Origin: Thalassobacillus devorans
GTDB taxonomy: Bacteria > Bacillota > Bacilli > Bacillales > Halobacillaceae
Assembly (NCBI RefSeq): GCF_900176565.1
Contig: NZ_FXEH01000006.1
Coordinates: 372,001 to 436,000, forward strand
Length of the DNA stretch: 64,000 bases
Direction of reading: 5' to 3'
Shown: positions 5,255-21,298 of the stretch, piece by piece
How positions within the stretch are numbered: position 1 is the stretch's first letter
Layout: every line of letters begins with the position of its first letter
Made by a program: the position numbers and the translations under genes
Notes under the pieces: model-generated
What the model saw: only the letters and a program-made list of their open reading frames with translations
Database searches by the model: none
Told to the model about the DNA's origin: nothing

Positions 5255-5367
5255 ATGATGATATACCCCCGAAAATTTATTTGCCGTTAATCCCTTGTAA
5301 TCTCATCGGAATAACTGTAATATATTTGTTACAAAAAACTATAATACATCCTGAGGAGGAAGTAAAG

Positions 5368-6291: not shown

Positions 6292-6300
6292 AAGGTGATT

Positions 6301-6663: not shown

Positions 6664-6677
6664 AGGAGGAGTTTAAG

Positions 6678-6938
6678 ATGGCTTTAAGCACAGAAGAATT
6701 GAGCACAGTGATACCTGATTATACGGTGGACGGGATTGGAGAAGTTTGCCCTCACACCTTGAATATCGCATTAAAAGCATTGAAAAAAGCAAAGCCAGGT
6801 GAAATCGTCATGGAAGTGACGGATCACTCCATCGCGACGAAAACTATTCCCGCAGCTGTAAAAATGAACAAAATCGCTGAAGTATTAGGTATCGTATCTG
6901 AGAACGGCGAGTATAAAATCTACCTGAAAAAGTTGTAA
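6678..6938 (+). CDS. TusA-family sulfur carrier protein
   Basis: The protein has 86 residues with the TusA/YedF/YeeD two-layer fold. The sulfur-carrying cysteine is in DGIGEVCPHTLN. The canonical CPxP motif is altered here to CPHT, so the second proline is missing. A strong AAAGGAGGAG site precedes the ATG. TusA-like proteins next to YeeE/YedE transporters accept sulfur delivered by the transporter (the YeeD/TsuB role) or by a rhodanese. With two rhodaneses upstream and YeeE directly downstream, a sulfur relay from uptake to biosynthesis is the natural reading. Confidence 0.85.
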   Translation: MALSTEELSTVIPDYTVDGIGEVCPHTLNIALKALKKAKPGEIVMEVTDHSIATKTIPAAVKMNKIAEVLGIVSENGEYKIYLKKL

Positions 6939-6959
6939 CGCAGAGAGGAATCGATACAC

Positions 6960-8090
6960 ATGTTTTTTATCTTGGATATGTTCATCCTTGCTGGAATATT
7001 CGGCTTTCTATACGGTTTTCTGCTGCAAAAAGCAGATTTCTGTTTCACAGCATCGTTCCGTGACTGGATCAGTGTCCGAGATAGTCGAATCGGAAAAGGG
7101 GTCCTCGTCCTGATTGCTACCGCTATGCTCGGATTTGGACTTATGTTGACCCTTGGCTTCGCTTCGGTCAAGCAAGTCTGGTCGATGCCAATCGGCTTTT
7201 CTAACCTGATCGGCGGTATTCTGTTCGGTATCGGAATGACGATTGCCGGCAGCTGTGCTTCCGGTGCCCTATATCGTGCAGGTATGGGATACATCCAGTT
7301 CTGGATTGTCATCGCCTGTATGATTGCCGGGAACCTGTTGTTTGCTCTTGTATATGATCCATGGGCAGCCGACTATGTCATGGAGCCATTAGCATTGACC
7401 GAAGAAGGATTCAGCCTTTTCCAAATGAACCTGCCATTTCTGCTAATCCCTTTCCTGATAGTCGCCTTAATGCTGTTTATCGCATCTCATCAGTTTGGAT
7501 GGATCGGCATATGGCAAGGTGCTAAAGAATCCTTGCAGGATATGAAAGGAAATCCACTAACGAAAAGCCACTGGGACATCCGGTTTGTTGCTGTACTGCT
7601 AGGGATACTTGCAACCATTCAATTTGTAGTCATGTCTTCGATCAGCATCACAGGACCGGAAACCCGGATCGGCGGGGTACTCTTATCCTTCTTTTTCGGA
7701 GAGGATTTCATTTACCAGAACACCTACCTGAACGGCATGTTCGCAGACTTTCCAGTGATCGGACTTGGACCGGAAGAAACCCTGGTCATTTTCATGATCA
7801 TCGGGGCGTTCGTCTCAGCCTTATTAAGCAAAAGCTTCCGGATCAGAAAGCCGAAAGCCTCAAGGCTTCCTTACGCCATTGGCGGCGGCTTGCTGATGGG
7901 AATATCCTCCCGGATGGCACCAGGCTGTAATATCGCCAATGTGGTAGCCGGAATGGGCGGCCTTTCCATCAGTAGTTTGATTGTCATTGTCGGTATGGCT
8001 GGCGGTGTGTTCATTGCTACAGCCTATATCTTTAAAATGCCGTTGATGTTATTCCAAAAGATGGACTTTGATTTTGATGAAAGTGCATAG
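6960..8090 (+). CDS. YeeE/YedE (TsuA-like) thiosulfate transporter
   Basis: The protein has 376 residues, is very hydrophobic and has about nine membrane segments. It is built as two related halves. Conserved cysteines stand in the three family positions: KADFCFTASFRDW near the N-terminus, AGSCASGALYRAG in the first half, and APGCNIANV in the second half. In the structurally known thiosulfate channel of this family such cysteines line the path of the ion. The ATG at 6960 follows GCAGAGAGGAAT. It is the last gene of the rhodanese-TusA operon. A selenium role, known for the YedE branch, is the alternative, but no selenium genes are nearby. Confidence 0.85.
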   Translation: MFFILDMFILAGIFGFLYGFLLQKADFCFTASFRDWISVRDSRIGKGVLVLIATAMLGFGLMLTLGFASVKQVWSMPIGFSNLIGGILFGIGMTIAGSCASGALYRAGMGYIQFWIVIACMIAGNLLFALVYDPWAADYVMEPLALTEEGFSLFQMNLPFLLIPFLIVALMLFIASHQFGWIGIWQGAKESLQDMKGNPLTKSHWDIRFVAVLLGILATIQFVVMSSISITGPETRIGGVLLSFFFGEDFIYQNTYLNGMFADFPVIGLGPEETLVIFMIIGAFVSALLSKSFRIRKPKASRLPYAIGGGLLMGISSRMAPGCNIANVVAGMGGLSISSLIVIVGMAGGVFIATAYIFKMPLMLFQKMDFDFDESA

Positions 8091-8180
8091 TTTATTAAAT
8101 AGGCAGCCTGGATCCGTACGTATGTGATTCAGGTTGTTTATTAACGTAGTCTCTGTCTTCTCTTTTACTTTATTGCAGGA

Positions 8181-8220
8181 AAAATACCTGCCCCCAGTGA
8201 GTTAACTCTTAAAGATGGGA
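8181..8220. repeat. Degenerate half copy of the GTGCCTGACC repeat
   Basis: ATACCTGCCCCCAGTGAGTT followed by AACTCTTA matches the left arm and loop of the dispersed repeat (see copy at 34923), but the right arm is lost apart from GATGGG. Confidence 0.5.
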
Positions 8221-8265
8221 TTCATGATTAATTACTAATAGGCCAAAAACTGATTTAAGATGTAA

Positions 8266-8301
8266 AATAGGAAATCCCAACTTGGGGTTTCCTATTTTTT
8301 A
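8266..8301 (+). terminator. Terminator downstream of the sulfur operon
   Basis: AATAGGAAATCCC and GGGGTTTCCTATT pair around AACTT, followed by a run of T. It lies about 180 bases after the YeeE stop and could serve the operon in either direction. Confidence 0.65.
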
Positions 8302-8782
8302 AAGTCACCTCCCGTAGTTCTAATACTAAATAGAGGGATTATTTGGTGTAAATAAAATGAAGTAAGGCCTAAAAACTTTAAACGAAAACTTGTAGATAAA
8401 TATGTATCTTTTGTTTATTATCATTGATTATACGAGCAATAATATCCCCGAGACGAAATCTTAAGATTTTTTTGGAACAACTTGCATTCACTTCAATCGT
8501 ATTTTAGAAACTCAAATTTTGTTTCCGCTAATCAATCCCCTCTCTAATATCAATATTTTATAAAACCAAGTAAAAAAATACCAAGAGGTCAATTATTCTA
8601 TTTAGAGAAATATTTTAAACAGGTAAAAGCAAAAATTTAAAACAGAGTAATAAAAATCTCTTATATGCTAGTTAATAATCAGAAAATTCTAATAAGACAA
8701 AATTATAAAAAGTTAAGTGCAAGATTTTAAAACAACAGATAGGAAATCTTCGTTAGACTTTTTAAGTGAGGAGGAACTCAAT
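8302..8782. other. AT-rich intergenic region upstream of the molybdenum-hydroxylase cluster
   Basis: About 480 bases without a convincing gene. The sequence is very AT-rich, with a short palindrome AAATCTTAAGATTT followed by T at about 8456-8475. The regulatory sites for the response regulator operon probably lie here, but no operator can be named. Confidence 0.5.
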
Positions 8783-9559
8783 TTGGCTGAAGTGTTGCTT
8801 GTTGATAATGATAAACAGAGTCGGCATGAGTTCTGTCAGATTATTCAAGAAAGCAAGTATAATTTTCTTTCTATCTATGAATCAAGTACAGCTGATCGCG
8901 CTTTATTTCTATTAAAACAAAACAAGCCTAGTTGTATGGTTATTGATTTATCTTTGCCTGATATGGATGGAATTAAATTGGGACGAACTGCTTTGGAAAT
9001 GTATCCAGATTTACCGGTGATCGTAGTGACTCACCTAAAAATGTTTAGTCTCGTACAGGATGCTATCAATGCAGGATTCTCCGCCTATTTGTTGAAAGCG
9101 CTTTCTAAAGCGGATTTAGTTGAAACATTGGAACGGGTGTTGACTCCCGAGCTGAGTAAGCAGATAAACAATATCATGAACAGAGGGCAAGGTGGGATTG
9201 TATCAGATTTAAGTAAACCGATTGAGAGTGCTATTCATATTATTCAGGAGCGTTATAACGAATCACTTACCTTGAAAGATGTTTCCGATCAGGTTTATTT
9301 GAGTCCCTCCTATTTTAGTCGGATGTTCAAAGATGAGACAGGAAAAAGTTTTGTCGAGTATCTCGCTTTTGTCAGGATGCAAAAAGCAAAGACAATGCTC
9401 CGACTGTCATCGCTTCCAATTGAAGTTATTGCTAATAATACGGGATTTACAACTGCAGGATATTTTGCAACAACATTTAAAAAGCATGTGGGAAACACAC
9501 CTAGTGAATACCGTGATCAATTCTATTGGAAAAATGAATCACGAACTATTAAAGCTTGA
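8783..9559 (+). CDS. Response regulator with AraC-type DNA-binding domain
   Basis: The protein has 258 residues. The TTG at 8783 is preferred because GAGGAGG lies 7 bases upstream and the product then starts at the first receiver strand (MAEVLLVDND). The receiver domain (about 1-125) has acidic residues near position 8, phospho-acceptor D55 in CMVIDLSLPD, T83 and K105. The C-terminus (about 160-258) is an AraC/XylS double helix-turn-helix, with YLSPSYFSRMFKDETGKSF and the closing FATTFKKHVGNTPSEYR. No histidine kinase is encoded next to it. It lies 13 bases before the XdhC-like gene, so it is probably the local regulator of the whole catabolic operon, responding to a remote kinase or directly to a ligand. 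Confidence 0.88.
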   Translation: MAEVLLVDNDKQSRHEFCQIIQESKYNFLSIYESSTADRALFLLKQNKPSCMVIDLSLPDMDGIKLGRTALEMYPDLPVIVVTHLKMFSLVQDAINAGFSAYLLKALSKADLVETLERVLTPELSKQINNIMNRGQGGIVSDLSKPIESAIHIIQERYNESLTLKDVSDQVYLSPSYFSRMFKDETGKSFVEYLAFVRMQKAKTMLRLSSLPIEVIANNTGFTTAGYFATTFKKHVGNTPSEYRDQFYWKNESRTIKA

Positions 9560-9572
9560 AGGGAGATAGCTT

Positions 9573-10688
9573 ATGCTTCCGATTTATAAGGAAATGAAAC
9601 GATGTCGTGACCTAATGAAAAAAGGGGTTTTGGGTACTATCATTCGTACGGAAGGATCTACTTACCAAAAAGCTGGAGCAAAATGTTTTATTAGTGAAGA
9701 TGGTTTTATAACTGGACTTGTAAGCGGAGGTTGTGTGGAAGGAGACCTAGGTGAATATGCCAAACATGTTATGGAGACTGGAAACTCCAAAAAAGTATTT
9801 TATGATTTCCGAGATGGAGGAGATGATTTATGGGGATTAGGGCTGGGTTGTAACGGTTCGATTGAAATATATTTAGAGCCGTTTTACCCTATGTCCCCTT
9901 CATCTATTCAAATCGAAGAGTTTTTTTCTCGGGCGTTAAGTAGTTCAATATGCATGATTACTATTATTTCCTCAGATAATCCAATATCAAGTGAAAAGGA
10001 ACGAATAATCATTGAGGAGGAAAACTCAAGCCATAATGAGATAAAAGATGAGCGAATTAAGAATGAGTACAATAAACGTTTAAAGAATAATGAAACAGGT
10101 CTTTATAGACGTGAGGAGTTAGAAGTCTTTTTCGATTTCGTTATCCCTTCTCCTCATGTCATTGTGTTTGGGGCAGGACCAGATGCTGTGCCACTTGTTG
10201 ATGGGGTAAAACGATTGAATTGGAGAGTTTCTGTCATCGATCATCGGCCAGAGTTTGTTAGTGGCTCACATTTTCCTGATGCGGATGAGCTGATTTTGAA
10301 CAAAAGAGGGACCTTACCTGAAATGACATTGAACGAGCACTCGTTCATCGTTATAATGACCCACCATTTTGAACAAGACCAGCAAATACTGAGTGAGCTA
10401 CTGAAAGTGAAGACAGGTTATATCGGGATCTTGGGTCCAAGGAAACGTACGTACCAGCTACTCGAAGGAATATCCAATGCCAAAGACATTTCAGAACAAG
10501 AACTGATTAATTTTTATAGTCCTATAGGGCTTGATATTAGTGCAAAAACACCGGAAGAGATTTCCTATAGCATTGTTACTGAGATGATCAATGTTCACCG
10601 CGGAGGTAATGGTATTTCACTTAAGATGACAAAGGGGCCTTATATATGGGAGCAAAAAAGAGAGGAAGAAGCATCATTGACAACATGA
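9573..10688 (+). CDS. XdhC/CoxI-family molybdenum cofactor insertion protein
   Basis: The protein has 371 residues and binds and protects sulfurated molybdenum cofactor for insertion into xanthine dehydrogenase-family enzymes. The N-terminal XdhC/CoxI domain shows GTIIRTEGSTYQKAGAK and the signature VSGGCVEGDLG. A low-complexity charged linker (about 145-180) joins it to a C-terminal Rossmann domain with VIVFGAGPDAVPLVDG, VIDHRPEFV and a closing LGPRKRT. AAGGGAGATAG precedes the ATG. The gene overlaps the next by 43 bases. It is encoded ahead of the enzyme subunits it should mature, as in many xdh and cox operons. Confidence 0.88.
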   Translation: MLPIYKEMKRCRDLMKKGVLGTIIRTEGSTYQKAGAKCFISEDGFITGLVSGGCVEGDLGEYAKHVMETGNSKKVFYDFRDGGDDLWGLGLGCNGSIEIYLEPFYPMSPSSIQIEEFFSRALSSSICMITIISSDNPISSEKERIIIEEENSSHNEIKDERIKNEYNKRLKNNETGLYRREELEVFFDFVIPSPHVIVFGAGPDAVPLVDGVKRLNWRVSVIDHRPEFVSGSHFPDADELILNKRGTLPEMTLNEHSFIVIMTHHFEQDQQILSELLKVKTGYIGILGPRKRTYQLLEGISNAKDISEQELINFYSPIGLDISAKTPEEISYSIVTEMINVHRGGNGISLKMTKGPYIWEQKREEEASLTT

Positions 10689-11293
10689 AAAAAAGAGAAG
10701 TCTGGGGAATTGTTTTAGCTGCAGGGTTGTCTTCTCGTATGTCCGCTCCAAAGATGCTTCTACCTTTCAAAGGTAAGACATTGATTCGTTCAGTTATTGA
10801 GAAAGCAATCAACTCCTCCTTAGATGAAGTTGTAGTAGTAGTAAACCCGGAAGTAGAGGGTCTGGTCAATGAAGCAAGAATTCCTGGTGTTCGTAAAGTG
10901 GTCTTGAACAGCAGAGCGCATATAGGGTTGTCAACTTCGGTGAAAGCAGGATTGATCGCATTGCCTGAATATGCAGAGGCTGCTTTATTCCTTCTTGGGG
11001 ATCAACCTTATATAACAGAACACGAGATAAATAAAGTAATTGAAAGATATAAAAAGGCGAGGAACTCTTCCATCTTTCAATCAACTTCTTTTGGTGTCAG
11101 GGGACACCCAGTGTTGTTCCATAGAGAGCTATTTGGTGAGTTATTCAGCGTAACCGGCGATGAAGGTGGAAGATCAGTTATTAAAAAATATTATCAGCAA
11201 GTTGAGTTAGTAGAGATGAGCACAAATCACCTTTTTGATATCGATACAAAAGGTGATTATGAAAAAGTGTTGAGTGAGGAGGTTTGTTTATGA
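10646..11293 (+). CDS. MocA-like molybdenum cofactor nucleotidyltransferase
   Basis: The protein has 215 residues and is a MobA/MocA-type nucleotidyltransferase that attaches CMP (or GMP) to molybdopterin. The NTP-binding signature is IVLAAGLSSRMSAPKMLLPF, with the metal-binding LLGDQPYI and a later RGHPVLFHRELF typical of the MocA branch. The start at 10646 has AAAGGGG 8 bases upstream; a second in-frame ATG at 10685 would still leave the whole domain. Xanthine dehydrogenase-family enzymes outside the purine branch use the cytosine dinucleotide cofactor, which fits a cytidylyltransferase. Its stop overlaps the next start (ATGA at 11290). Confidence 0.85.
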   Translation: MGAKKRGRSIIDNMKKREVWGIVLAAGLSSRMSAPKMLLPFKGKTLIRSVIEKAINSSLDEVVVVVNPEVEGLVNEARIPGVRKVVLNSRAHIGLSTSVKAGLIALPEYAEAALFLLGDQPYITEHEINKVIERYKKARNSSIFQSTSFGVRGHPVLFHRELFGELFSVTGDEGGRSVIKKYYQQVELVEMSTNHLFDIDTKGDYEKVLSEEVCL

Positions 11294-13722
11294 CTCAATC
11301 AATAGGGACTCCTGTCAATCGAGTGGAAGATGATCGCTTATTAACCGGTCAGGGGAAGTACATGGATGATATTGGAACACCACCCAATACCGCTCAGGCT
11401 GCTATTTTGAGAAGTACGTATCCTCATGCGGATATTATTTCAATCGACACATCAGAAGCTGAAAAGGTAACTGGTGTGAAAGCAGTCATCACGGGTGAGC
11501 AAATTAAACAGTATATGAAACCTTTTAGTGTGGGTGTAAGTGCTCCTGTTAAATATTACCCGGTTGCTGTTGATAAGGTTCGTTATGTTGGAGAACCTGT
11601 AGCAGTAGTATTAGCTAAAAATCGATATATTGCTGAAGATGCGCTGGATAAAATTAAAGTGAAATATGAAGCACTCAAGCCGATTGTCGACATAGAGCAG
11701 TCCTTGGAATCTGATGCTCCGTTACTCCATGAAAATGTGGGTTCCAACATAGCGAATCATCGGACTTTCGATTACGGGGAGGTCAATCAGGCGTTCGAGC
11801 AAGCTGACCATGTAATCAAGCATAAATACCACTTCCCAAAATACTCTGCAATACCTGTAGAGACATATGGAATCCTAGCAAGCTATGAAAATAGCGAAGA
11901 CTGTTATACCATCCATGCAAATTTTCACGGGCCATTTGTTATTCAGGCGGTAATGGCACAAGCATTAGGTATCCCTGGTAACAAACTAAGAATTGTAGTC
12001 CCTAAAGATATCGGGGGGAGTTATGGAATAAAAGCAGGGGCATTTCCATACATGGTTCTGTTAGCCATCACCAGTCGTATTGCTGGCTGTTCAGTAAAGT
12101 GGATTGAAGATCGGCAAGAGCATTTATCAGCAAGCTCCAGTGGGACAGACCGAGTCACTTATATAGAGGCTGCTGTAAAGAAAAGTGGCAAGGTAACGGG
12201 CTTAAGGATGAAAATGATTGACAATGTTGGTGCATATATACGAGCTCCTGAGCCTGCTTGTTTATACAGGACGCATGCTAATTCTACTGGAGCTTATGAT
12301 ATTCCAAACCTCCATATTGAAGCAATTGCAACCATGACTAATAAGTTGCCGACAGGACTTATAAGAGGATATGGCGGTCAAGAGCTTTATTTTCCATTAG
12401 AAAGACTGATGCAGCGAGTTGCAAAGGAACTTGTTATGGACCCTGCAGATGTCATAAGAGAAAACATAATCAAGAAGCATCAGTTTCCTTATAAGACTGC
12501 CTCCGGAGGTATATATGATAGCGGGGATTATGAAAAGGGATTTGAGCTCGCGATTGAAACCGGCAAATATACAGAGTTTAGAAGAAAGCAGCAAGAGGCA
12601 AGAAAGAAAGGGAAAATTTTCGGTGTAGGACTTGCGAATATCGTGGAGCCTTCAGGTTCAAACATGGGATACATCACGGTGGCTTTAACACCGGAGGAAA
12701 GAGCTTCTTCCCTCCCTAAATCCGGGTGTGCTGAAGCGGCAACCGTATCTATGGATCCGACGGGTAGCGTCAATGTGAGAATCAGCACTACACCATCCGG
12801 TCAAGGTCATGAAACTGTTGCAGCCCAAATCATAGCTGATGTACTTGGTATCCCTATGGATAAAGTCAATGTAGTGGCGGAATTGGATACTTCAACAAGC
12901 GCCTGGTCGATTGCATCAGGAAGTTATTCCAGTAGATTCGCATCCTTAGGATCCAGTGCAGTATTTTATGCAGCCCACAAGGTGAAATCTAAACTTTTTA
13001 AAATAGCGGCCCATCAGCTGCAGGTGGAAGCTAGTGATTTGGAATTAAAAGCAGGAAGTATTTTTGTCAAAGACAATCCGGAACAGAAGTACTCATTAAA
13101 ACGTGCTGTCGGTACAGCACATTGGAACCCTCTGGCTCTGCCGGAAGGAATGGAACCAGGTATCTATGAAACTTATTATTATACAGCCAAAAATACTGAA
13201 CCGCCTGATGAACAGGATTTAATCAATTCTTCAGTGACCTATGGATTTGTCTCTGACCTGGTAACGGTAGAAATTGACCCGGAAACAGCAAATGTAGAGA
13301 TTATTGATTATGTGACCATCCATGATGCAGGGAAATTATTAAACCCTAAAATTGTAGATGGACAAATATTCGGCGGGCTTGCTCATGGGCTGGGTGGCGC
13401 CTTGTATGAAGAATTAGCATATGACTCAAAAGGGCAATTTTTAACTGGATCTTTTATGGATTACCTTTGCCCTACTGCCCCAGAAATGCCAAAAGTAACG
13501 ATAAAGCACATGGAGACTCCTTCACCGATTACTCCACTTGGAGCCAAAGGGCTTGGGGAAGGCAATACGATGAGTGCTCCTGTAGCTGTTGCCAATGCCG
13601 TTAGTGACGCATTGTCCCCTTATAATATTGAAATTGACACACTTCCTTTAAGTCCAAATTATATATGGAGACTTTTAGCAAAGTCAGATATCTATCAAAA
13701 ACACAAAGAGGTGAATGCATGA
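11290..13722 (+). CDS. Molybdopterin-binding large subunit, xanthine dehydrogenase family
   Basis: The protein has 810 residues and is the catalytic subunit of a three-part molybdenum hydroxylase. It starts with the family opening GTPVNRVEDDRLLTGQGKY and has the central GGSYGIKAG molybdopterin region. The substrate loop reads IRGYGGQE (residues 358-365), not the AYRCSFR loop of CO dehydrogenase, so it is not a true CODH. The catalytic glutamate is E757 in KGLGEGN. The ATG at 11290 follows GAGGAGG and overlaps the previous stop. With the CoA ligase and crotonase-fold enzyme downstream, the substrate is probably an acyl-CoA; 2-furoyl-CoA dehydrogenase (HmfA) is the best candidate. Carboxylates such as nicotinate are alternatives. 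Confidence 0.88.
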   Translation: MTQSIGTPVNRVEDDRLLTGQGKYMDDIGTPPNTAQAAILRSTYPHADIISIDTSEAEKVTGVKAVITGEQIKQYMKPFSVGVSAPVKYYPVAVDKVRYVGEPVAVVLAKNRYIAEDALDKIKVKYEALKPIVDIEQSLESDAPLLHENVGSNIANHRTFDYGEVNQAFEQADHVIKHKYHFPKYSAIPVETYGILASYENSEDCYTIHANFHGPFVIQAVMAQALGIPGNKLRIVVPKDIGGSYGIKAGAFPYMVLLAITSRIAGCSVKWIEDRQEHLSASSSGTDRVTYIEAAVKKSGKVTGLRMKMIDNVGAYIRAPEPACLYRTHANSTGAYDIPNLHIEAIATMTNKLPTGLIRGYGGQELYFPLERLMQRVAKELVMDPADVIRENIIKKHQFPYKTASGGIYDSGDYEKGFELAIETGKYTEFRRKQQEARKKGKIFGVGLANIVEPSGSNMGYITVALTPEERASSLPKSGCAEAATVSMDPTGSVNVRISTTPSGQGHETVAAQIIADVLGIPMDKVNVVAELDTSTSAWSIASGSYSSRFASLGSSAVFYAAHKVKSKLFKIAAHQLQVEASDLELKAGSIFVKDNPEQKYSLKRAVGTAHWNPLALPEGMEPGIYETYYYTAKNTEPPDEQDLINSSVTYGFVSDLVTVEIDPETANVEIIDYVTIHDAGKLLNPKIVDGQIFGGLAHGLGGALYEELAYDSKGQFLTGSFMDYLCPTAPEMPKVTIKHMETPSPITPLGAKGLGEGNTMSAPVAVANAVSDALSPYNIEIDTLPLSPNYIWRLLAKSDIYQKHKEVNA

Positions 13723-14177
13723 TGGAAGGAAAAGGAAAAATGAGTTTGAATGCTGGGATTGAAAGGTCATGGGAAGTATTAATGGATTCAAATGTACTTG
13801 AGAAATGCATTATGGGTTGTGAAAAGCTGGAGCAGATTGAAGAAAATAAATATGAAGCAGAGCTGGCAATGGGGATTGCTGCAGTTAAAGGGAGATATTC
13901 CTCCACTATAGAGCTGGCAGAGTTAGACAAGCCTAAGCACTACAAGTTGATCGTAAAAGGGGAAGGAGGTCCTGGTACAGTAGAAGCCGTGGGTAACATT
14001 GACTTAATAGCCGAGGATGAGACCGAAACTACACTTAAGTATACTTACGATGCAGAAGTTGGTGGGAAAGTGGCCATGATAGGTCAGCGGATGCTCGGCG
14101 GTGTTGCAAAAATGATTATTCAGGACTTCTTTAAGAAATTAAAAAAAGAACTGGAAAACACAAAGCAGCATACTTGA
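13719..14177 (+). CDS. CoxG-like SRPBCC protein
   Basis: The protein has 152 residues with the START/SRPBCC fold of CO dehydrogenase subunit G: it opens with a GIERSWEVLMDSNVLEKCIMG helix-grip region and continues LAMGIAAVKGRYSSTIEL and YDAEVGGKVAMIGQRMLGG. CoxG-like proteins accompany molybdenum hydroxylases as assembly or membrane-recruitment factors, not as catalytic subunits. Two start codons are adjacent (13719 and 13722), both after AAAGAGGTGA; the first overlaps the large-subunit stop as ATGA. It lacks the long C-terminal membrane anchor seen in some CoxG proteins. Confidence 0.82.
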   Translation: MMEGKGKMSLNAGIERSWEVLMDSNVLEKCIMGCEKLEQIEENKYEAELAMGIAAVKGRYSSTIELAELDKPKHYKLIVKGEGGPGTVEAVGNIDLIAEDETETTLKYTYDAEVGGKVAMIGQRMLGGVAKMIIQDFFKKLKKELENTKQHT

Positions 14178-14196
14178 ATGGAAAGGAGGTTGAGTG

Positions 14197-15066
14197 ATGA
14201 AACCAGCCAAATTCGATTATCACCGGCCAGATAACCTTCCTGATGCACTAAGACTTTTAGATGAAGCTGGATTTGACGGAAAGATAATAGCTGGTGGACA
14301 AAGTCTCGTCCCAATAATGAATATGCGCTTGGCAACTCCCGAGTGTCTGATCGATATCAACGGATTAACTGATCTTGACTTCATTGAGTGCAAAGACCAT
14401 GTAGTCAAAATAGGTGCTATGACACGACAAAGCCAGGTAGAGGATTCTGAAGTAGTAGGACAGAATATTCCTTTACTAAAAGAAGCAGTCCCATTTATTG
14501 GACATGTGCAAACAAGGAACAGAGGCACAATTGGTGGGAGTATCGTCCATGCTGACCCGAGTGCAGAACTCCCACTTGTACTGATGACACTTGGTGGGAA
14601 AGTAAAGATTTCTTCGGGAGATGAAGAACGAATAGTTGATGCAGAAGATTTTTTTATAACCTACCTTACTACTGATTTAATGCCAACAGAGATACTAACT
14701 GAAATCCATATTCCTGTCTGGGAAGGGCAAACAGGCCATTCATTTATGGAGGTTGCTCGTCGACATGGGGATTTTGCGCTGGTGGCTGCTTCGTGTCAGA
14801 TGGCCGTTGACGAGGTTGGCAGGATTGGAAACGTACGTTTAGCTTTGGGTGGTGTAGAAGCTATTCCATTTCTAATAGAAGATGCCCAAACAGTGCTCTG
14901 CGGAGAGCAGTTGACGGAGGGACTAATCGAACAACTAGCAGAAATAGTAGGGGAGAGTGTGGAGCCCGAATCAGACCTTCATGCCTCTGAAGAGTATCGA
15001 CGGCATCTAGCTAAAGTGCTGACTTCGCGTACGTTACGTCAGGCATATGAAAGAGCGAGAGGGTGA
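14197..15066 (+). CDS. FAD-binding medium subunit of the molybdenum hydroxylase
   Basis: The protein has 289 residues. It binds FAD and passes electrons from the iron-sulfur subunit to the acceptor. The FAD motifs of the family are clear: AGGQSLVPIMNMRLA near residue 30 and TRNRGTIGGSIVHADPSAEL near 105. There is no inserted cysteine cluster, so the extra 4Fe-4S centre of 4-hydroxybenzoyl-CoA reductases is absent. This argues for an oxidative dehydrogenase. The ATG at 14197 has a near-perfect AAAGGAGGT site, which makes it preferable to the GTG at 14194. The end overlaps the next frame by four bases. Confidence 0.88.
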   Translation: MKPAKFDYHRPDNLPDALRLLDEAGFDGKIIAGGQSLVPIMNMRLATPECLIDINGLTDLDFIECKDHVVKIGAMTRQSQVEDSEVVGQNIPLLKEAVPFIGHVQTRNRGTIGGSIVHADPSAELPLVLMTLGGKVKISSGDEERIVDAEDFFITYLTTDLMPTEILTEIHIPVWEGQTGHSFMEVARRHGDFALVAASCQMAVDEVGRIGNVRLALGGVEAIPFLIEDAQTVLCGEQLTEGLIEQLAEIVGESVEPESDLHASEEYRRHLAKVLTSRTLRQAYERARG

Positions 15067-15566
15067 TAAATTTGGCGATGCAGGAAATCGAGGTCACTAT
15101 CAATGGCACCAGATATGAGGAAATGGTGGAGCCTAGAATGCTCTTAAGTGACTTTTTGAGAGAGGTATGCGGACTTACTGGTACGCATGTCGGCTGCGAA
15201 CATGGGGTGTGTGGAGCTTGCACGGTCGTATTAGATGATGCTGCAGTTAGAAGTTGCTTAATCTTCGCGGTGCAGGCAGACGACAGGAGTATACTTACGG
15301 TAGAAGGGCTCGCACAAAATGGAGAATTAACGACTCTGCAGAAAAACTTCAAGGAAAATCATGGACTACAATGTGGTTTTTGCACCTCAGGGATACTCAT
15401 GGCAGCCACTGACTTTATTGAAAAAAAACCAGAAGCAGACAGTCAGGAAATTAAAGAAATGCTGTCAGGACATTTATGCAGGTGTACAGGCTACGATGGC
15501 ATAGTAAAAGCTGTAGAGAAGACTATTGAAGAAAACAAAAATTCCGTAAAGGAGTTGAACACATGA
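15063..15566 (+). CDS. 2Fe-2S small subunit of the molybdenum hydroxylase
   Basis: The protein has up to 167 residues. It has a plant-type ferredoxin domain with C45, C50, C53 and C65 (GCEHGVCGACTVV) and a second four-helix domain with C104, C107, C139 and C141 (CGFCTSG and LCRCTGY). This is the standard two-cluster subunit of the xanthine dehydrogenase family. GTG 15063, TTG 15072 and ATG 15078 are all possible starts; GAGAGGG just upstream fits the first two best. It overlaps the FAD subunit and, at its end, the CoA ligase gene (ATGA), so the stoichiometry is likely set by translational coupling. Confidence 0.9.
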   Translation: MINLAMQEIEVTINGTRYEEMVEPRMLLSDFLREVCGLTGTHVGCEHGVCGACTVVLDDAAVRSCLIFAVQADDRSILTVEGLAQNGELTTLQKNFKENHGLQCGFCTSGILMAATDFIEKKPEADSQEIKEMLSGHLCRCTGYDGIVKAVEKTIEENKNSVKELNT

Positions 15567-17119
15567 ATATTGCAAAGTTACTAGAGTTTGCAGTAGAAAG
15601 ACACCCAAATAAGACTGCGGTTGTACAAGGGGATATTCGCTTGACCTATTCCCAGTTGGATTCTAAGGTGTCTCAAGTGGCTGCCTCTCTGCAACGGATA
15701 GGGGTCAAGCAACAAGACCGGGTAGTCGTTATATTAAAAAACCGGTTGGAAAATGTACTTACTTATTGGGCTTTGCAGAGGCTTGGTGCTATTTATACGC
15801 CTATTAACTTTCGATTATCGGCCAAGGAAGTCGAGTATTGCGTGAACGATGCGGAAGCGTCCGCAATCGTCTATGAAAATGTCAGTCAGGAAGCTGTCCT
15901 GAATGCAGACTTTAAAGAGCGGCCTATTCTGATAGGCGTACATGACGTAGAAGGGGCAGATATTTATTTCAAAGAGTTAGTAGAAAGGAGTCCAGTAAGC
16001 TACAAACAACCAACCGTTCAGGATGATGACATAGCCCTTATGCTTTATACCTCAGGAACGACCGGCAAGCCGAAGGGAGTTCCGAGAAGTAATAAAAATG
16101 AATATGCGTCTGCTACAGCCCACATTATACAAAACCATTATACAGTAGGTGAAAGTACCCTTGGAACGATGCCTCTTTATCACACGATGGGGATGAGATC
16201 ACTGTTATCAATCGCCTTTGTCAATGGTAAGTATGTGATACTTCCCGATTTTGATGCTAACGATGCGCTTGAATTGTTAAGTGAGGAACAACTTACTTGC
16301 TTATATTTAGTTCCAACACTTTATCATGATATGTTGAACCAGCCACATTTTGAGGAATACGATCTCACTTCTTTGAAAAAATTAGGATACGCAGGGGCGT
16401 CCATGACCACTGCCTTGACAGAAAAATGTGTGAAATACTTTAAACCTGAAGTTTTCGTCAATCATTATGGAAGCACAGAAGTGTACACATTCACAATTAA
16501 TCCAAATGTAAGAGAGAAGCCTGGATGCGCTGGTAAGCCTGGGTTCCATCAAAATATCCGTATAGTGAATGCTGATCCAAATGGGGGCGCCAGTCACAAG
16601 GATGTAGTGAACAAGGAAGAGGTTGGGGAGATTATTGCGAGCCTGGATTCCAGTGAAGCTTTCAAAGGGTATTGGAATCGGCCGGATGCTACAAAAAAAT
16701 CGATTCGAGATGGTTGGTATTTTACTGGTGATTTAGGATATATAGATGCAGATGGAGATTTGCACGTAGTAGGTAGAGTAGATGATATGATCATCTCCGG
16801 TGGAGAAAATATTCATCCATTAGAAGTAGAAGATATTTTAGCGAAACACCCTAAGGTGTCAGAAGTTGCTATCGTCGGAGAAGAGGATAATCGTTGGGGG
16901 CAGATCGTAACTGCTTATGTAGTACCATCCGATTCATCACTTACTATTCAGGGGTTGGATGAGTACTGTAAAAACCACCCGAAGTTATCTAATTTCAAGC
17001 GACCTAGAAACTATATTTTCATTAAGGAAATACCGAAAAGTCCAGTAGGAAAGATCCTTCGCAGAAAATTACGTGAAGGGGAATTTGAATTATTTAGTGA
17101 TGAGCAGGTAGTCCAGTAA
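15563..17119 (+). CDS. AMP-dependent acyl-CoA synthetase (candidate 2-furoyl-CoA ligase)
   Basis: The protein has 518 residues of the ANL superfamily. It activates a carboxylic acid with ATP and CoA in the cytoplasm. The P-loop is YTSGTTGKPKGVP (from about residue 162), the A5 region has NHYGSTE, and the C-terminal hinge and catalytic lysine region reads GWYFTGDLGYID, GRVDDMIISGGENIHP and SPVGKILRRKLRE. Its start overlaps the ferredoxin subunit stop. Because activation sits next to a hydroxylase and a crotonase-fold enzyme, the operon most likely works on CoA-bound intermediates, as in furoate degradation (HmfD). A benzoate or other aryl-CoA ligase cannot be excluded from sequence alone. Confidence 0.85.
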   Translation: MNIAKLLEFAVERHPNKTAVVQGDIRLTYSQLDSKVSQVAASLQRIGVKQQDRVVVILKNRLENVLTYWALQRLGAIYTPINFRLSAKEVEYCVNDAEASAIVYENVSQEAVLNADFKERPILIGVHDVEGADIYFKELVERSPVSYKQPTVQDDDIALMLYTSGTTGKPKGVPRSNKNEYASATAHIIQNHYTVGESTLGTMPLYHTMGMRSLLSIAFVNGKYVILPDFDANDALELLSEEQLTCLYLVPTLYHDMLNQPHFEEYDLTSLKKLGYAGASMTTALTEKCVKYFKPEVFVNHYGSTEVYTFTINPNVREKPGCAGKPGFHQNIRIVNADPNGGASHKDVVNKEEVGEIIASLDSSEAFKGYWNRPDATKKSIRDGWYFTGDLGYIDADGDLHVVGRVDDMIISGGENIHPLEVEDILAKHPKVSEVAIVGEEDNRWGQIVTAYVVPSDSSLTIQGLDEYCKNHPKLSNFKRPRNYIFIKEIPKSPVGKILRRKLREGEFELFSDEQVVQ

Positions 17120-17142
17120 GAAAATAGAAGGGAGAAATAAAT

Positions 17143-17931
17143 ATGACAACGAGTACACAATATGATCACATTCGAGTGGAAAAAAACAGGGAGGACAAAA
17201 TTGCGACGATTGTTTTTGATCGACCAGAAAAAATGAACTACATCAGCATGCTCGCACGAGCTCAATTTTCTGAAATTTTCGAGGATTTAAATGCAGATGA
17301 AAATGTAAGGGTAATCGTTATTAAAGGAGAAGGTGACCAAGCCTTTAGTGCTGGGGGAAGCATTCCGCAGTTTTTGGAAGCTCATCCGGAAGAATTATCT
17401 CACTTGGCGGAAAATGTAGCAGCTCCTGAGCGTTCTCCAAAACCGGTGATTGCTCAATTGCAGGGATATACATTCGGGGTAGGTTTTGAAATCGCTATGG
17501 CTTGTGATTTTCGGATTGCTGCAGAAGATACCTTGTTAGCATTGCCTGAAATGAATTTGGGGATGATACCGGGAAGCGGTGGTACTCAACGGGTAGCACG
17601 GGCTGTTGGATTGACTAGAGCTAAAGACATGATTATGCGTGCCAGAAGAATTCCTGCCCATGAAGCTTATCAATGGGGGCTGCTCACTCAAGTAGTAGAA
17701 AAGGATCGATTAGAAGAAGAGGTAGCAAGTGTGGCTAAGGACCTTACTCGCTTCTCACCATTGGCACAACGTGTATGTAAAGAAGTATTAAATTCTGCAG
17801 AAGAAGGTCCGTTAAGTACAGGGCTGCAAATTGAAGGTAGAGCTTATGGCATGTTAAGGGGAACTGAGGATTTTAAAGAAGGTGTAGAGGCTTTCGTAGA
17901 AAAAAGAAAGCCGCAATTTACAGGAAAATAA
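17143..17931 (+). CDS. Enoyl-CoA hydratase/isomerase-family enzyme (candidate 2-oxoglutaroyl-CoA hydrolase)
   Basis: The protein has 262 residues of the crotonase superfamily. The oxyanion-hole segments are AFSAGGSIPQF and GYTFGVGFEIAMACD. Both catalytic glutamates of hydratases are kept, in GFEIAM and in LPEMNLGMIPGSGGTQR. It follows the ligase by 23 bases with its own GAAGGGAGAA site. In the known furoate pathway the crotonase-fold HmfE hydrolyses 2-oxoglutaroyl-CoA to 2-oxoglutarate, the last step. In other contexts the same fold would hydrate an unsaturated acyl-CoA. The assignment to furoate is drawn from the gene set, not from this protein. Confidence 0.8.
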   Translation: MTTSTQYDHIRVEKNREDKIATIVFDRPEKMNYISMLARAQFSEIFEDLNADENVRVIVIKGEGDQAFSAGGSIPQFLEAHPEELSHLAENVAAPERSPKPVIAQLQGYTFGVGFEIAMACDFRIAAEDTLLALPEMNLGMIPGSGGTQRVARAVGLTRAKDMIMRARRIPAHEAYQWGLLTQVVEKDRLEEEVASVAKDLTRFSPLAQRVCKEVLNSAEEGPLSTGLQIEGRAYGMLRGTEDFKEGVEAFVEKRKPQFTGK

Positions 17932-17938
17932 GGGAGGC

Positions 17939-17959
17939 CTGCAAGGGCTTCCCTTGCAG
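17939..17959 (+). promoter_or_regulatory. Intercistronic hairpin between crotonase-fold gene and transporter
   Basis: CTGCAAGGG and CCCTTGCAG form a perfect 9-bp stem around CTT. A T-run (GTTTTT) only appears about 8 bases later, so it may be a weak terminator or an mRNA-stabilising hairpin that lowers transporter expression. Confidence 0.5.
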
Positions 17960-18017
17960 CAGCCAGTTTTTATAACCAATAAATTCTGAATTTTCAGAAA
18001 GGTGGTAGGGGCTGTTG

Positions 18018-19256
18018 ATGAATGAACAGAACAATCTACTTAAGAATTTGAACGTAAATACCATCAGCGCCGGGACTCTTGCAGCAATCTTTGGATGTAC
18101 TGGCCCAGCTTTAATTGTCATAGGAGGAGCTCAAAATGGAGGGTTATCGCAGGCTGAAACGATTTCCTGGTTGTTTGCCATCTATTTTTTCGGCGGGTTA
18201 CTTGGGCTTATTCTATCTCTGAAATATAAGCAGCCAATTGCCGGTGCATATTCTATTCCAGGGGCCGTACTTGTAGCAGGTGCACTAACCCATTTCTCCT
18301 TAAATGAAGCAGCTGGAGCTTATCTTGTTTCAGGGATTATTGTATTTATCTTAGGTATAAGTGGATTGATTGGAAAGGTTATGCATTGGCTCCCCGTTCC
18401 TATTGTCATGGCAATGATTGTAGGAGCGATGATCAGATTTGGAACAGGCATGATTACATCCGTAGAAGAAGCTCCCTTGATCGCAGGGGCAGCCATTCTT
18501 GTATATTTACTTTCATCAAGGTTTATTGCACATGTTCCTCCGATATTAACAGCATTTCTGGTCGCAGTAATTTTTGCAGGTTCAATGAACCAGTTTCAAA
18601 TGGGCGCTATGGAACCCAGCTTTATTGTACCTGGTTTTGTGATACCTACATTCAGTATTGATGCTATCCTTTCGATTTCCATTCCCTTAGCATTATTGGT
18701 AATAGGTGCAGAGAATGCACAAGCGTCAGGTGTATTGATCGCTCAGGACTATAAGCCGCCGATCAATGCCATGACCATTTATAGTGGTATTGGCGGAATC
18801 ATTACTTCCTTATTCGGAGGACATAATGCTAATGTTGCCGGTCCAATGACTGCTATATGCGCTTCTGAAGAAGCTGGTCAAGATAAGAAAGGTCGCTATG
18901 CTTCCGTTGTTGTGAATGGTGTGCTTTTTGCAACCTTCGGATTGTTAGCGGGGGTTGCTGTCCCATTTGTTACTGGTATGCCTTCCGTATTGATCGGGAC
19001 TGTCGCAGGATTGGCAATGATTGGGGTCCTTTTAAGTTCTTTACAATCAGCTTTTTCTAATCCAAGGTTTCAAATAGGTTCCTTCTTTGCTCTTGTCATC
19101 GGTATGTCCGGGGTAAGCTTCTTTGACATCAGTTCGCCATTCTGGGCTATAGTCGGCGGTGTTCTAGTTTCCTTAATTATAGAAAAGAGAGATTTTGATG
19201 CCGTTAAACAAAGCAGAAAAGAAGATTCATCACGTACGAAAGTTGAAACAGCTTAA
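18018..19256 (+). CDS. BenE-family benzoate/H+ symporter-like transporter
   Basis: The protein has 412 residues and about 12 membrane segments. It resembles the BenE benzoate:proton symporter family, with GCTGPALIVIGGAQNGGL near the N-terminus, GAYSIPGAVLVAGAL, and GGHNANVAGPMTAICASEEAG in the second half. It should import an aromatic or heteroaromatic carboxylate, matching the CoA ligase upstream. The ATG at 18018 has GAAAGGTGG upstream; a TTG at 18015 is adjacent. It is the last gene of the cluster and is followed by a strong terminator at 19309. Confidence 0.85.
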   Translation: MNEQNNLLKNLNVNTISAGTLAAIFGCTGPALIVIGGAQNGGLSQAETISWLFAIYFFGGLLGLILSLKYKQPIAGAYSIPGAVLVAGALTHFSLNEAAGAYLVSGIIVFILGISGLIGKVMHWLPVPIVMAMIVGAMIRFGTGMITSVEEAPLIAGAAILVYLLSSRFIAHVPPILTAFLVAVIFAGSMNQFQMGAMEPSFIVPGFVIPTFSIDAILSISIPLALLVIGAENAQASGVLIAQDYKPPINAMTIYSGIGGIITSLFGGHNANVAGPMTAICASEEAGQDKKGRYASVVVNGVLFATFGLLAGVAVPFVTGMPSVLIGTVAGLAMIGVLLSSLQSAFSNPRFQIGSFFALVIGMSGVSFFDISSPFWAIVGGVLVSLIIEKRDFDAVKQSRKEDSSRTKVETA

Positions 19257-19308
19257 TGTTAATTTTGAGTTCAGTTCTCCGAGAGAAAACTTTAAATAAT
19301 ACAATCAG

Positions 19309-19342
19309 GAGTGCTAATCGCAATGCGGTTCGCACTCTTTTT
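19309..19342 (+). terminator. Terminator of the molybdenum-hydroxylase operon
   Basis: GAGTGC and GCACTC enclose an inner stem AATCGC/GCGGTT around AAT (19309-19337), followed by TTTTTG. It lies 52 bases after the transporter stop. Confidence 0.85.
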
Positions 19343-19607
19343 GTCGTCGATATATCAACATTTATGTGGATTTAACAATTCAATAATCACAATAATTAGT
19401 AACCTTTTTAAAAGCATCCATAAACCTATGTACTACTGCTGGTTGACTTGTAAAGACAAAAGTTAATTGGAGTGTTGTCTTCAATGTTAGCTTAGTGATA
19501 GTCCAAGTTTATTCTTAGGACCTTATGTTAAAATATGTATATAATTTTCGGATTTTTGTACTTAAACTAACTAGTCAGCATTGTAAAAAAAGAAGGACTC
19601 ACATTAC
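19343..19607. other. Intergenic region without a recognised feature
   Basis: AT-rich sequence between the operon terminator and a gene remnant. I see no open frame with a ribosome site, and no clear regulatory signal. Confidence 0.4.
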
Positions 19608-19975
19608 TATAGGAAGAAACTGAATGCAGAAACAGGGCCATGGCCGGTAGAGAGGAACGGTGAAGTCTGTAAATGGCTGGCATCTGATTATCGAGACACT
19701 CCTTATGTTTGCCATGAGGATGGACCAACAGAAGATTCAAAAGAGCGAGCTGGCGGAGGAGGAAGCTATCTTTCGAATGAAAGTCAATATCGCTTTACCC
19801 GTGTAAGAATTGGTCTTGGCGCCTTCCTGGCGGTCATCTGCATGTTGCTGCTCGAGAACACTATCCAGAAGACACCAGTGTTTACATCACCAAAGATTTC
19901 AAGAATTTCCTTATGGATACAGTAGACCAGACCGTGGAGCTTGTGAAGGCTGCAGCAAACGCAGTAGAAAGATAA
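19608..19975 (+). pseudogene. Frameshifted 3' remnant of a gene (possibly pyroglutamyl-peptidase-like)
   Basis: The frame starting near 19608 reads without stops through LNAETGPWPVERNGEVCKW, HEDGPTEDSKERAGGGG and SNESQYRFTRVRIGLGA, then meets a stop at about 19923. Shifting one frame near 19820 restores a sensible continuation, LPGGHLHVAA ... FLMDTVDQTVELVKAAANAVER, ending in TAA at 19973-19975. So this is the C-terminal part of a once longer protein with a frameshift and no visible 5' end. The SNE...YR/PGGHLH pattern recalls pyrrolidone-carboxylate peptidase relatives, but that is a weak recollection. A terminator follows immediately. Confidence 0.6.
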
Positions 19976-19990
19976 TTTTATTTTAAAATA

Positions 19991-20024
19991 GGTCACAGTT
20001 TCTCATGGGAGCTGTGATCTTTTT
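19991..20024 (+). terminator. Terminator after the gene remnant
   Basis: GGTCACAG (19991-19998) pairs with CTGTGATC (20012-20019) and is followed by five T. It presumably ended the ancestral gene whose remnant lies just upstream. Confidence 0.7.
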
Positions 20025-20072
20025 ATGATAAGAAAGGGGGGTATTAACTTATATTAATTAATAAAATTTCTA

Positions 20073-20101
20073 TTGACGTAAGCGTTTGCATGATTTATAG
20101 T
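20073..20101 (+). promoter_or_regulatory. Promoter of the LacI-family regulator gene
   Basis: TTGACG (20073-20078) and TATAGT (20096-20101) are separated by exactly 17 bases. The spacer holds GTAAGCGTTTGCAT, which resembles a cre or LacI-family operator, so catabolite control or autoregulation at the promoter is plausible. Confidence 0.7.
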
Positions 20102-20109
20102 TTTAGTTA

Positions 20110-20138
20110 CAGGTAAACGATTACGCAAACGTTTACCT
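20110..20138. promoter_or_regulatory. LacI-family operator 1 (autoregulatory site)
   Basis: AGGTAAACG-ATTACG-CAAACGTTTACCT is a near palindrome just downstream of the promoter and about 30 bases before the regulator start. The core CGATTACGCAA recurs at 21189 and, inverted, at 26858. Confidence 0.7.
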
Positions 20139-20167
20139 CGGTTTTAAATAGAAATGAGGAGTTAGCT

Positions 20168-21163
20168 ATGGCATCAATTAAAGACGTAGCAATCAAGGCA
20201 CAAGTTTCTACAGCAACGGTTTCCCATGTGATCAATGGTACTCGCTTTGTAGCTGAAGAAACGAAGGATAAGGTCTTTTCAGCTATGGAAGAACTAGATT
20301 ACCGGCCTAATCGGATAGCCCGCAGTTTAAGAAGTCGTAAATCATACACCATTGGGCTCTTAGTCCCATTAGTGGCAGAAGATACATCTAATTTCTTTTT
20401 TATGTCGATTGCTAACGGGATTGAACAGGTTTTGAAAGATAACGGATATAATTTGATTTTAAGTAATTCGAATGAAGATGTAGATACCGAACGTGATCAG
20501 ATAAGAGTATTTAACAGCCAGTTCATTGATGGGTTAATCATTGCCCCGGTCAATGGCGAAGATTGTAACTATGAGAAAGAGCTCTCAGGAGATTATCCGG
20601 TCGTATTCATTGACCGTCATCCTGCTGAATTAAAGGGAGATATGATACTGGTCAATAATCGTCAAGGTACCTATGAGGCTGTGACAAAGTTAATTAATAA
20701 AGGTCACCAAAAAATTGGCTTCATCACAGGATCGCTGGGGATTACGACAAGTGATGAGCGGCTGGAAGGCTATAAAGAAGCACTTGAAAACTATCAGCTT
20801 CCAATTGATGAAAACTATATGAAAGAAGGGCCGGCTACTTTCCAACAGGGATATCAGCTGGCGAAGGAATTACATGAAGCAAAGGTTACGGCACTTTTTG
20901 TCGCGAATAATGTTATGACAATGGGGGCGGTATCTTATCTGCAGGAAAAAGAAGTGAAGGTTCCAGAAGAAATGGCAATCATCGGGTACGATGATTATGA
21001 TTGGATGAAAATCACCTCGCCACCGTTATCCGTAGTGAGACAGCCAGCCTTGGAGCTTGGAAAAGCAGCAGTAGAGCAATTATTGAAGAAGGTGGAAGGC
21101 TCACAGGATGAACCGGTGGAGATTATGCTGGATTCTGAGTTGATTCTAAGGGGTTCCTGTTAA
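20168..21163 (+). CDS. LacI-family transcriptional regulator of the fructan island
   Basis: The protein has 331 residues. The N-terminal helix-turn-helix is SIKDVAIKAQVSTATVSHVI with the hinge helix NRIARSLRSRKS, followed by a periplasmic-binding-protein-like sensor domain that should bind a sugar. AATGAGGAGTTAG precedes the ATG. It lies directly before the ABC importer and fructosidase genes. The matching operators in front of itself, of the binding protein and of the giant secreted enzyme make it the probable repressor of the island, relieved by fructose, sucrose or a fructo-oligosaccharide. The inducer is inferred from the neighbouring GH32 enzymes. Confidence 0.88.
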   Translation: MASIKDVAIKAQVSTATVSHVINGTRFVAEETKDKVFSAMEELDYRPNRIARSLRSRKSYTIGLLVPLVAEDTSNFFFMSIANGIEQVLKDNGYNLILSNSNEDVDTERDQIRVFNSQFIDGLIIAPVNGEDCNYEKELSGDYPVVFIDRHPAELKGDMILVNNRQGTYEAVTKLINKGHQKIGFITGSLGITTSDERLEGYKEALENYQLPIDENYMKEGPATFQQGYQLAKELHEAKVTALFVANNVMTMGAVSYLQEKEVKVPEEMAIIGYDDYDWMKITSPPLSVVRQPALELGKAAVEQLLKKVEGSQDEPVEIMLDSELILRGSC

Positions 21164-21188
21164 AAGGCTCCTTTTCTTTTTAATCATT

Positions 21189-21212
21189 AGGTAAACGATT
21201 ACGTAAACGTTT
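21189..21212. promoter_or_regulatory. LacI-family operator 2, before the ABC importer operon
   Basis: AGGTAAACGATTACGTAAAC followed by GTTTTT matches operator 1 almost base for base over its left two thirds. It lies about 90 bases upstream of the binding-protein gene. Confidence 0.7.
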
Positions 21213-21298
21213 TTTTAAGGAGGTGTCCGCAAAACAACAAATTATTTGGGGTTTTGTAGAAAGGAAAATATGTATCAAAACAAAGGGAGGAAAGGTTA

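Follow-up and report, generated by a model that had tools for sequence, protein, structure and literature searches.

A putative 2-furoate catabolic operon of Bacillota type, probably acquired by horizontal transfer, in Thalassobacillus devorans

What does a three-subunit molybdenum hydroxylase do beside a CoA ligase, a crotonase-fold enzyme and a BenE-type carboxylate transporter in a Gram-positive bacterium? This question is raised by a locus of Thalassobacillus devorans at positions 8783-19256, plus strand, of the 64,000-nucleotide stretch analysed here (the window; assembly GCF_900176565.1, contig NZ_FXEH01000006.1, positions 372,001 to 436,000). 2-Furoic acid is a breakdown product of plant-sugar furans, and 2-oxoglutarate is a central metabolite. 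A preliminary description had proposed from gene content that the locus serves the breakdown of 2-furoate, and our results favour this proposal: with a probability of about 0.86, the locus would be a horizontally acquired 2-furoate catabolic operon of Bacillota type (hmf, the Trudgill route), with 2-oxoglutarate as end product. The protein families, the gene order, a close kinship to hmf operons, the motifs and an insertion are read directly from the DNA. Gene order, trees, the ligase pocket, the UbiD and UbiX neighbours of relatives and a functional locus of Pseudomonas all support the furoate reading, with furoate itself as the probable substrate.

The ten genes of the locus are co-directional and form one operon, with 4-base overlaps at five junctions (XdhC/MocA, MocA/HmfA, HmfA/CoxG, HmfB/HmfC and HmfC/HmfD). 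All nine genes named in the preliminary description were found again in place on the plus strand; its count falls one short, since it omitted a free-standing coxG gene (13719-14177; Pfam PF06240, E 6.7e-28), which encodes an SRPBCC-type partner and lies between the genes for the large and FAD-binding subunits. A scan for promoter-like matches gave 31 against 31.3 in shuffles, and 6 terminator-like matches against 8.8, with no excess over shuffled sequence in either case.

Relatives were collected by similarity to the ligase or to the large subunit and tabulated as 92 stretches, of which 79 came from a genome collection, 12 were plasmid-borne and one was the window itself; the genome list comprises the 80 top-ranking of at least 586 matches, and the shares given here describe close hmf-like loci only. 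An HmfA homologue is present in 84 of the 92 stretches and the complete set of genes A to E in 78, near which UbiD (39), UbiX (32), a GMC oxidoreductase (23), BenE (10), a major facilitator superfamily (MFS) carrier (41), XdhC (17) and MocA (12) were detected. Proteobacterial plasmids and genomes hold the relatives in A-B-C-D-E order, often beside UbiD, UbiX and the GMC-family oxidoreductase, which are gene kinds serving the upper route from furandicarboxylate or hydroxymethylfurfural (HMF). The nearest operons are all from Bacillota. Among the 14 further members of the Bacillota HmfA group described below, eight keep the order regulator-XdhC-MocA-A-CoxG-B-C-D-E exactly; it recurs with MocA, or both XdhC and MocA, undetected in three (L023, L028 and L031), and the remaining L010, L026 and L038 are rearranged. 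As this order is kept in the Bacillota loci and the edges of the insertion enclose the operon, the gene set is beyond chance.

The putative furoyl-CoA dehydrogenase consists of HmfA (11290-13722), the molybdenum-binding large subunit, HmfB (14194-15066; Pfam FAD_binding_5 1.6e-48, CO_deh_flav_C 8.1e-23), the FAD-binding subunit, and HmfC (15063-15566; Pfam Fer2_2 2.2e-28, Fer2 1.5e-9), the subunit for two 2Fe-2S clusters, with cluster cysteines at 45, 50, 53 and 65 and at 104, 107, 139 and 141. HmfA carries the motifs GYGGQ at 360 and GLGEGN at 754, and is 46-51% identical to HmfA from syntenic proteobacterial operons. The large-subunit tree has 48 rows, and L121 and 41 of the 91 loci of relatives, hand-picked for spread, were entered in it. 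The window protein falls inside a 15-row Bacillota group (SH-like approximate likelihood ratio test, SH-aLRT, 99), which is nested in a 42-row group (99) that includes proteobacterial HmfA. The four enzymes from the Protein Data Bank (PDB) in the tree, two carbon monoxide (CO) dehydrogenases, quinoline oxidoreductase and 6-hydroxypseudooxynicotine dehydrogenase, stand outside this group. Thus, the large subunit groups with the HmfA of hmfABCDE operons. The tree gives no firm order of branching for Bacillota, Proteobacteria, Haloarchaea, Binatota and Rokubacteria, and three placements limit it: the second HmfA of L041 joins the outgroup, L040 is not part of the main group, and L034, a metagenome-assembled genome of the Bacillota, stands among proteobacteria (81). 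Like the ligase tree, it was built by a quick method; outgroup branches are long, and in neither tree does the outgroup form one clean side.

HmfD (15563-17119), the candidate 2-furoyl-CoA synthetase of the ANL ligase family, is 46-50% identical to proteobacterial HmfD, with scores of about 500-555 bits against it and about 164 bits against the PDB benzoate-CoA ligase, an enzyme that is not in the tree; its closest solved structure is 4-chlorobenzoate-CoA ligase (278 bits). The ligase tree holds 60 sequences, from 42 of the 91 relatives' loci, again hand-picked for spread, and seven of about ten paralogs from the own genome. A split with a support of 97 sets 51 HmfD-like rows apart from the seven paralogs, 4-chlorobenzoate-CoA ligase and one unrelated Bradyrhizobium ligase, and the window protein joins the ligases of Fictibacillus, Anoxybacillus, Aeribacillus, Jeotgalibacillus, Halalkalibacterium and Halalkalibacter operons (8 rows, 96). 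The acid pocket was compared at the ten positions lining it in 4-chlorobenzoate-CoA ligase. Nine of them (H T M Y A H G Y T) are the same in the window and in all 20 proteobacterial HmfD rows; these nine residues are kept in 49 of the 51 HmfD-like rows, in none of the seven own paralogs and not in 4-chlorobenzoate-CoA ligase. The 49 rows include second ligases found in other Bacillota, so pocket identity alone does not define the substrate.

HmfE (17143-17931; Pfam ECH_1 1.3e-58), the putative crotonase-fold 2-oxoglutaroyl-CoA hydrolase, is 48-52% identical to proteobacterial HmfE over the alignment, and its crotonase-type glutamates E116 and E136 are invariant in all 12 aligned rows. The last gene (18015-19256; Pfam BenE 2e-78) encodes a BenE-type carboxylate/H+ symporter that passes the cut-off of NCBIfam TIGR00843 (207 against 203.4 bits) and is a probable furoate importer. 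Substrate, transport, lactone opening, electron acceptor and regulation are what we infer from these assignments. BenE would take up furoate, HmfD would convert it to 2-furoyl-CoA and HmfABC would hydroxylate C5 of the furan ring, with maturation of the hydroxylase aided by the XdhC/CoxI-family factor (9573-10688; Pfam XdhC_C 2.1e-34, XdhC_CoxI 6.6e-17) and by the MocA-type molybdenum cofactor cytidylyltransferase (10685-11293; NCBIfam TIGR03310 1.3e-50, its 172 bits being slightly below the cut-off of 186.45). The hydroxylated product would then open as a lactone, and HmfE would complete the hydrolysis of 2-oxoglutaroyl-CoA to 2-oxoglutarate, which would enter the tricarboxylic acid cycle. 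Ligation, C5 hydroxylation, lactone opening and thioester hydrolysis follow one another in this order in the available part of a review (PMC6604932). The own genome also encodes MoaA, and no second HmfA homologue was found in it.

HMF and furandicarboxylate were considered as substrates and set aside. The own genome has no match to UbiD (PF01977), which is matched in nine of 14 control genomes; therefore furoate or furfural, rather than HMF or furandicarboxylate, is the expected substrate.

Several observations weigh against assigning the operon to furoate. Identity to proteobacterial HmfA, HmfD and HmfE does not exceed 46-52%, and proxies with the same gene set stood in for the characterised proteins of C. 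basilensis, P. putida Fu1 and P. pseudoalcaligenes. The HmfA of haloarchaeal and Rokubacteria loci, which have a non-standard layout, is about equally close (46.6-49.8%), and the enzymes encoded there may act on other acids. By family, neither an aldehyde dehydrogenase nor a separate lactone hydrolase is found among the ten operon genes; a putative "hyd" is reported for P. umsongensis in the accessible text of PMC12064950. Lastly, the ligase tree pairs the window's group, as sister, with the second ligases that other Bacillota encode upstream (16 rows, 97) and not with the HmfE-adjacent ligases there, so that simple one-to-one orthology of HmfD does not follow. Seven Bacillota loci (L009, L027-L031 and L034) have such a second HmfD-like ligase upstream of their regulator, and these ligases together with that of L035 make up one clade.

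Conceivably, although this is unlikely, the substrate is a different five-ring heteroaromatic acid (thiophene-2- or pyrrole-2-carboxylate) or a furoate with substituents, which these enzymes would ligate, hydroxylate at C5 and hydrolyse in the same way. The chemistry would be similar, HmfA/HmfD-like pairs do occur in non-standard layouts in Haloarchaea and Rokubacteria, and the second Bacillota ligases form the sister clade just described. On the other hand, the ligase pocket agrees at nine of ten positions with proteobacterial HmfD, many of them linked to UbiD, and related operons of Fictibacillus, Jeotgalibacillus and Geobacillus carry UbiD within their stretch; a literature search on thiophene-2-carboxylate found nothing.

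The two further alternatives are suggested mostly by names and best matches. The operon could be taken for one of aerobic CO dehydrogenase, given its CoxG, CoxL-like and XdhC/CoxI proteins: the best NCBIfam large-subunit match of HmfA is a CO dehydrogenase group, and its best PDB chain is CoxL (476.5 bits). However, the 545 bits reached are far under the cut-off of 950, neither AYRCSFR nor CSFR of the CO dehydrogenase active-site loop (AYXCSFR) occurs in HmfA, the CO dehydrogenases lie outside the HmfA group in the tree and the operon has a ligase and a crotonase, so that we give this identity next to no credence. A CoA pathway of benzoate or hydroxybenzoate type, to which the BenE transporter and the 4-chlorobenzoate-CoA ligase structure might point, is hardly more credible: the operon genes include no ring reductase or oxygenase, the pocket is unlike that of the chlorobenzoate ligase, and HmfB scores only 85 bits against the 404.55 of the NCBIfam cut-off for the beta subunit of 4-hydroxybenzoyl-CoA reductase. 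The cysteines of HmfB (290 residues) are at 51, 66, 201 and 236 only, and none falls where the 4Fe-4S insert of that reductase subunit lies. The absence of both the loop and the insert had been asserted beforehand, together with the relative weakness of these two alternatives, and all three statements hold, by motifs and by NCBIfam scores and, for CO dehydrogenase, by the tree as well; the two phylogenies that had been called for also went the way of furoate, the large subunit standing apart from the CO dehydrogenase, quinoline and 6-hydroxypseudooxynicotine enzymes, and the ligase apart from 4-chlorobenzoate-CoA ligase and seven own-genome acyl-CoA ligases. Xanthine dehydrogenase was set aside as an identity, since its PDB chains reach no more than 128 bits and the top PDB match reaches 477; the nicotinate enzyme reaches 161 bits over a half-length chain, and neither of the two is in the tree.

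If the operon does degrade furoate, the electrons released by furoyl-CoA hydroxylation need a destination, and CoxG suggests one. The COXG Pfam domain is present in eight of ten aligned HmfA proteins, lying at the C-terminus of proteobacterial HmfA, and is missing from those of the window and, by the alignment, of Geobacillus, both of which have a separate coxG gene. With a phmmer domain threshold of 1e-8, 63 of the 84 loci with HmfA have CoxG as a fused domain and 16 as a separate protein, and five show none (the fetched stretches of L010, L034, L041, L045 and L052; L010 has an annotated CoxG elsewhere on the same plasmid). The last 24 residues of the fused proteins are net positive in 62 of 63, and a loose pattern, hydrophobic-x-x-R/K-hydrophobic, occurs in 57 of 63, both counts being raw observations without a background control; such a basic tail resembles what an amphipathic membrane tail would look like. 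The window CoxG scores 180.5 bits against PDB 2pcs, whose sequence equals the CoxG of the Geobacillus kaustophilus operon in 149 of 150 printed residues, and 26.6 bits against PDB 8uds, the CoxG of CO dehydrogenase.

In the sections available of the papers concerned, CoxG of CO dehydrogenase is proposed as a membrane recruiter (PMC4240915) and as a carrier of electrons via bound menaquinone (Kropp et al. 2025, as cited in PMC13240472), and a CoxG-like protein of Sulfolobus anchors glycerol-3-phosphate dehydrogenase (PMC11962113). These systems place a COXG-family protein beside a respiratory-linked dehydrogenase, as in the window, although the window CoxG is distant from 8uds and its role in furoate catabolism is proposed by analogy. 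CoxG would dock the dehydrogenase at the membrane, from where electrons would pass to the quinone pool; furoyl-CoA dehydrogenase may thus be membrane-recruited and is probably quinone-linked. Two reports, as far as their accessible text goes, speak against an essential part for CoxG: coxG mutants of O. carboxidovorans still use CO, with slower growth (PMC4240915), and in S. acidocaldarius the partner dehydrogenase reduces quinone without needing the CoxG-like protein (PMC11962113).

The first gene (8783-9559; Pfam Response_reg 1.7e-18, HTH_18 1.5e-22) encodes a regulator with a receiver domain and an AraC-type helix-turn-helix, which would switch the operon. It starts at a TTG at 8783 preceded by GAGGAG, or at a GTG at 8717. 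Its relatives adjoin hmf genes in Bacillota loci. Of 17 aligned rows, 16, including the window, retain the phosphoacceptor aspartate, and L029 has glutamate instead; family scans of the ten genes found no histidine kinase gene in the operon. We consider the odds about even for the combined proposal that furoyl-CoA dehydrogenase is a membrane-recruited quinone reducer with CoxG as its membrane or electron partner, free in Bacillota and fused with a basic tail in proteobacteria, and that in Bacillota an orphan response regulator switches the operon.

How did the operon reach this genome? A congener (G041), 95.9% identical to the window around recA, has both flanks, window 5631-8139 at 97.5% and 20056-22431 at 95.9%, with 111 bp between them in place of window 8140-20055. 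Since both flanks are there around an empty site, these 11.9 kb were probably inserted in the window genome, and their loss from the congener is less likely. At 40.8%, the G+C content of the inserted stretch is below that of the DNA preceding (44.5%) and following it (44.7%). At an E-value of 1e-250 or lower, the large subunit is found in three of 44 genomes of the family, the window's own and two of another genus, and in none of the four congeners; across the order, it is present in 15 of 397 genomes and 12 of 136 genera. The two copies of the other genus match window 8230-19211 (in one, 8576-19211) at 93% DNA identity, and the recA region of these genomes is 78.5-80% identical to that of the window genome in its two larger pieces, a third piece reaching 66-67%. 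In the flanks fetched with the two copies, only about 144 bp match the window, plus 153 bp at 81% in one. Taken together, these comparisons indicate that the operon probably moves as a compact block between genera of one family. Direct repeats of at least 14 bases were absent within 7900-8400 and within 19200-20200, each searched apart, repeats common to both edges not being tested. The piece of about 144 bp, at window 1727-1871 and thus 6 kb upstream of the operon, corresponds to L104 15672-15814 and L105 5799-5940, directly beside the operon in the copies of the other genus, hinting at a shared insertion neighbourhood.

Around the inserted stretch, genes for rhodanese-like sulfurtransferases and a YeeE/YedE-type transporter adjoin it at 5281-8090. 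Further upstream, an S-adenosylmethionine (SAM) riboswitch (2045-2152; 79.6 bits, gathering threshold 44.4) precedes a sodium/solute symporter gene (2444-3994); apart from this riboswitch, an Rfam scan of window 1-22000 gave only three weak matches, all below threshold. Downstream lie a GH32 enzyme (24657-26144) and a 1900-residue protein with GH32 and laminin-G-like domains (26906-32608), which follow a LacI-type regulator and a sugar-binding ATP-binding cassette protein and likely serve fructan use. The IstB-type ATPase of an IS21-like element is encoded at 42487-43251, preceded by a 537-residue open reading frame (40877-42490) with no Pfam match at 1e-8.

Among the closest known systems is hmfABCDE of Cupriavidus basilensis HMF14 and its relatives, for which C. 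necator NH9 pENH92 (L020) and P. xenovorans LB400 (L074) served as proxies: A-B-C-D-E order, domains, ligase pocket and crotonase glutamates are as in the window. PMC6678421 gives GenBank ADE20399-ADE20403 for the C. basilensis proteins HmfA to HmfE. In contrast to the Cupriavidus type, where CoxG is fused to HmfA, the window operon has a free CoxG and includes MocA and XdhC; BenE replaces the MFS carrier, the receiver/AraC protein replaces a LysR regulator, and UbiD, UbiX and GMC genes are lacking. Compared by gene set and not by protein sequences, the proteobacterium Pseudomonas pseudoalcaligenes CECT 5344 has a locus equivalent in function to the window operon, with hmfABCDE, benE, the XdhC-type psfD and an AraC-family regulator. 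According to the accessible portion of PMC6678421, this bacterium grows on furoic acid, an adapted strain was mutated in the AraC-family gene BN5_2307, and inactivation of the mutated gene restored the original phenotype.

The hmf pathway had been called one described in proteobacteria, which needs qualifying: the same operon is already public, under generic gene names, on plasmid pHTA426 of Geobacillus kaustophilus HTA426 (L009), where regulator, XdhC, MocA, HmfA, free CoxG, HmfB, HmfC, HmfD and HmfE are ordered as in the window; it differs by UbiD, an MFS carrier and the second ligase upstream, and no BenE occurs in the 20-kb stretch fetched. The HmfF of G. kaustophilus has reportedly been studied, and this species may be mentioned by Koopman et al. 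(2010). Plasmids of Halorussus and Natrinema (L013 and L121) carry relatives of HmfB-C-A with two AMP ligases, BenE, a PaaI-family thioesterase and DUF6282; L013 gave no HmfE match in the tabulated stretches, which do not include L121, and an archaeal variant of furoate breakdown is possible there. Pelotomaculum thermopropionicum belongs to the Bacillota as well. Its HmfF has been published with structures (available excerpt of PMC10176493), so one hmf-type gene of the phylum is already known. Among titles and abstract starts of the open-licence literature, we found no description of an hmf operon in Bacillota. What is new is the Bacillota layout, with a free CoxG and an orphan response regulator; the pathway itself is the known hmf route.

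With these results, a guess from gene content becomes a well-supported furoate pathway outside the proteobacteria. Geobacillus, Anoxybacillus, Aeribacillus and Fictibacillus would be Bacillota sources of furan-degrading enzymes, which may be of use in cleaning lignocellulose hydrolysates. Moreover, the contrast between free and fused CoxG makes the destination of the electrons from furoyl-CoA hydroxylation directly testable; if the proposed membrane recruitment is true, hydroxylation of the furan ring would supply the respiratory chain.

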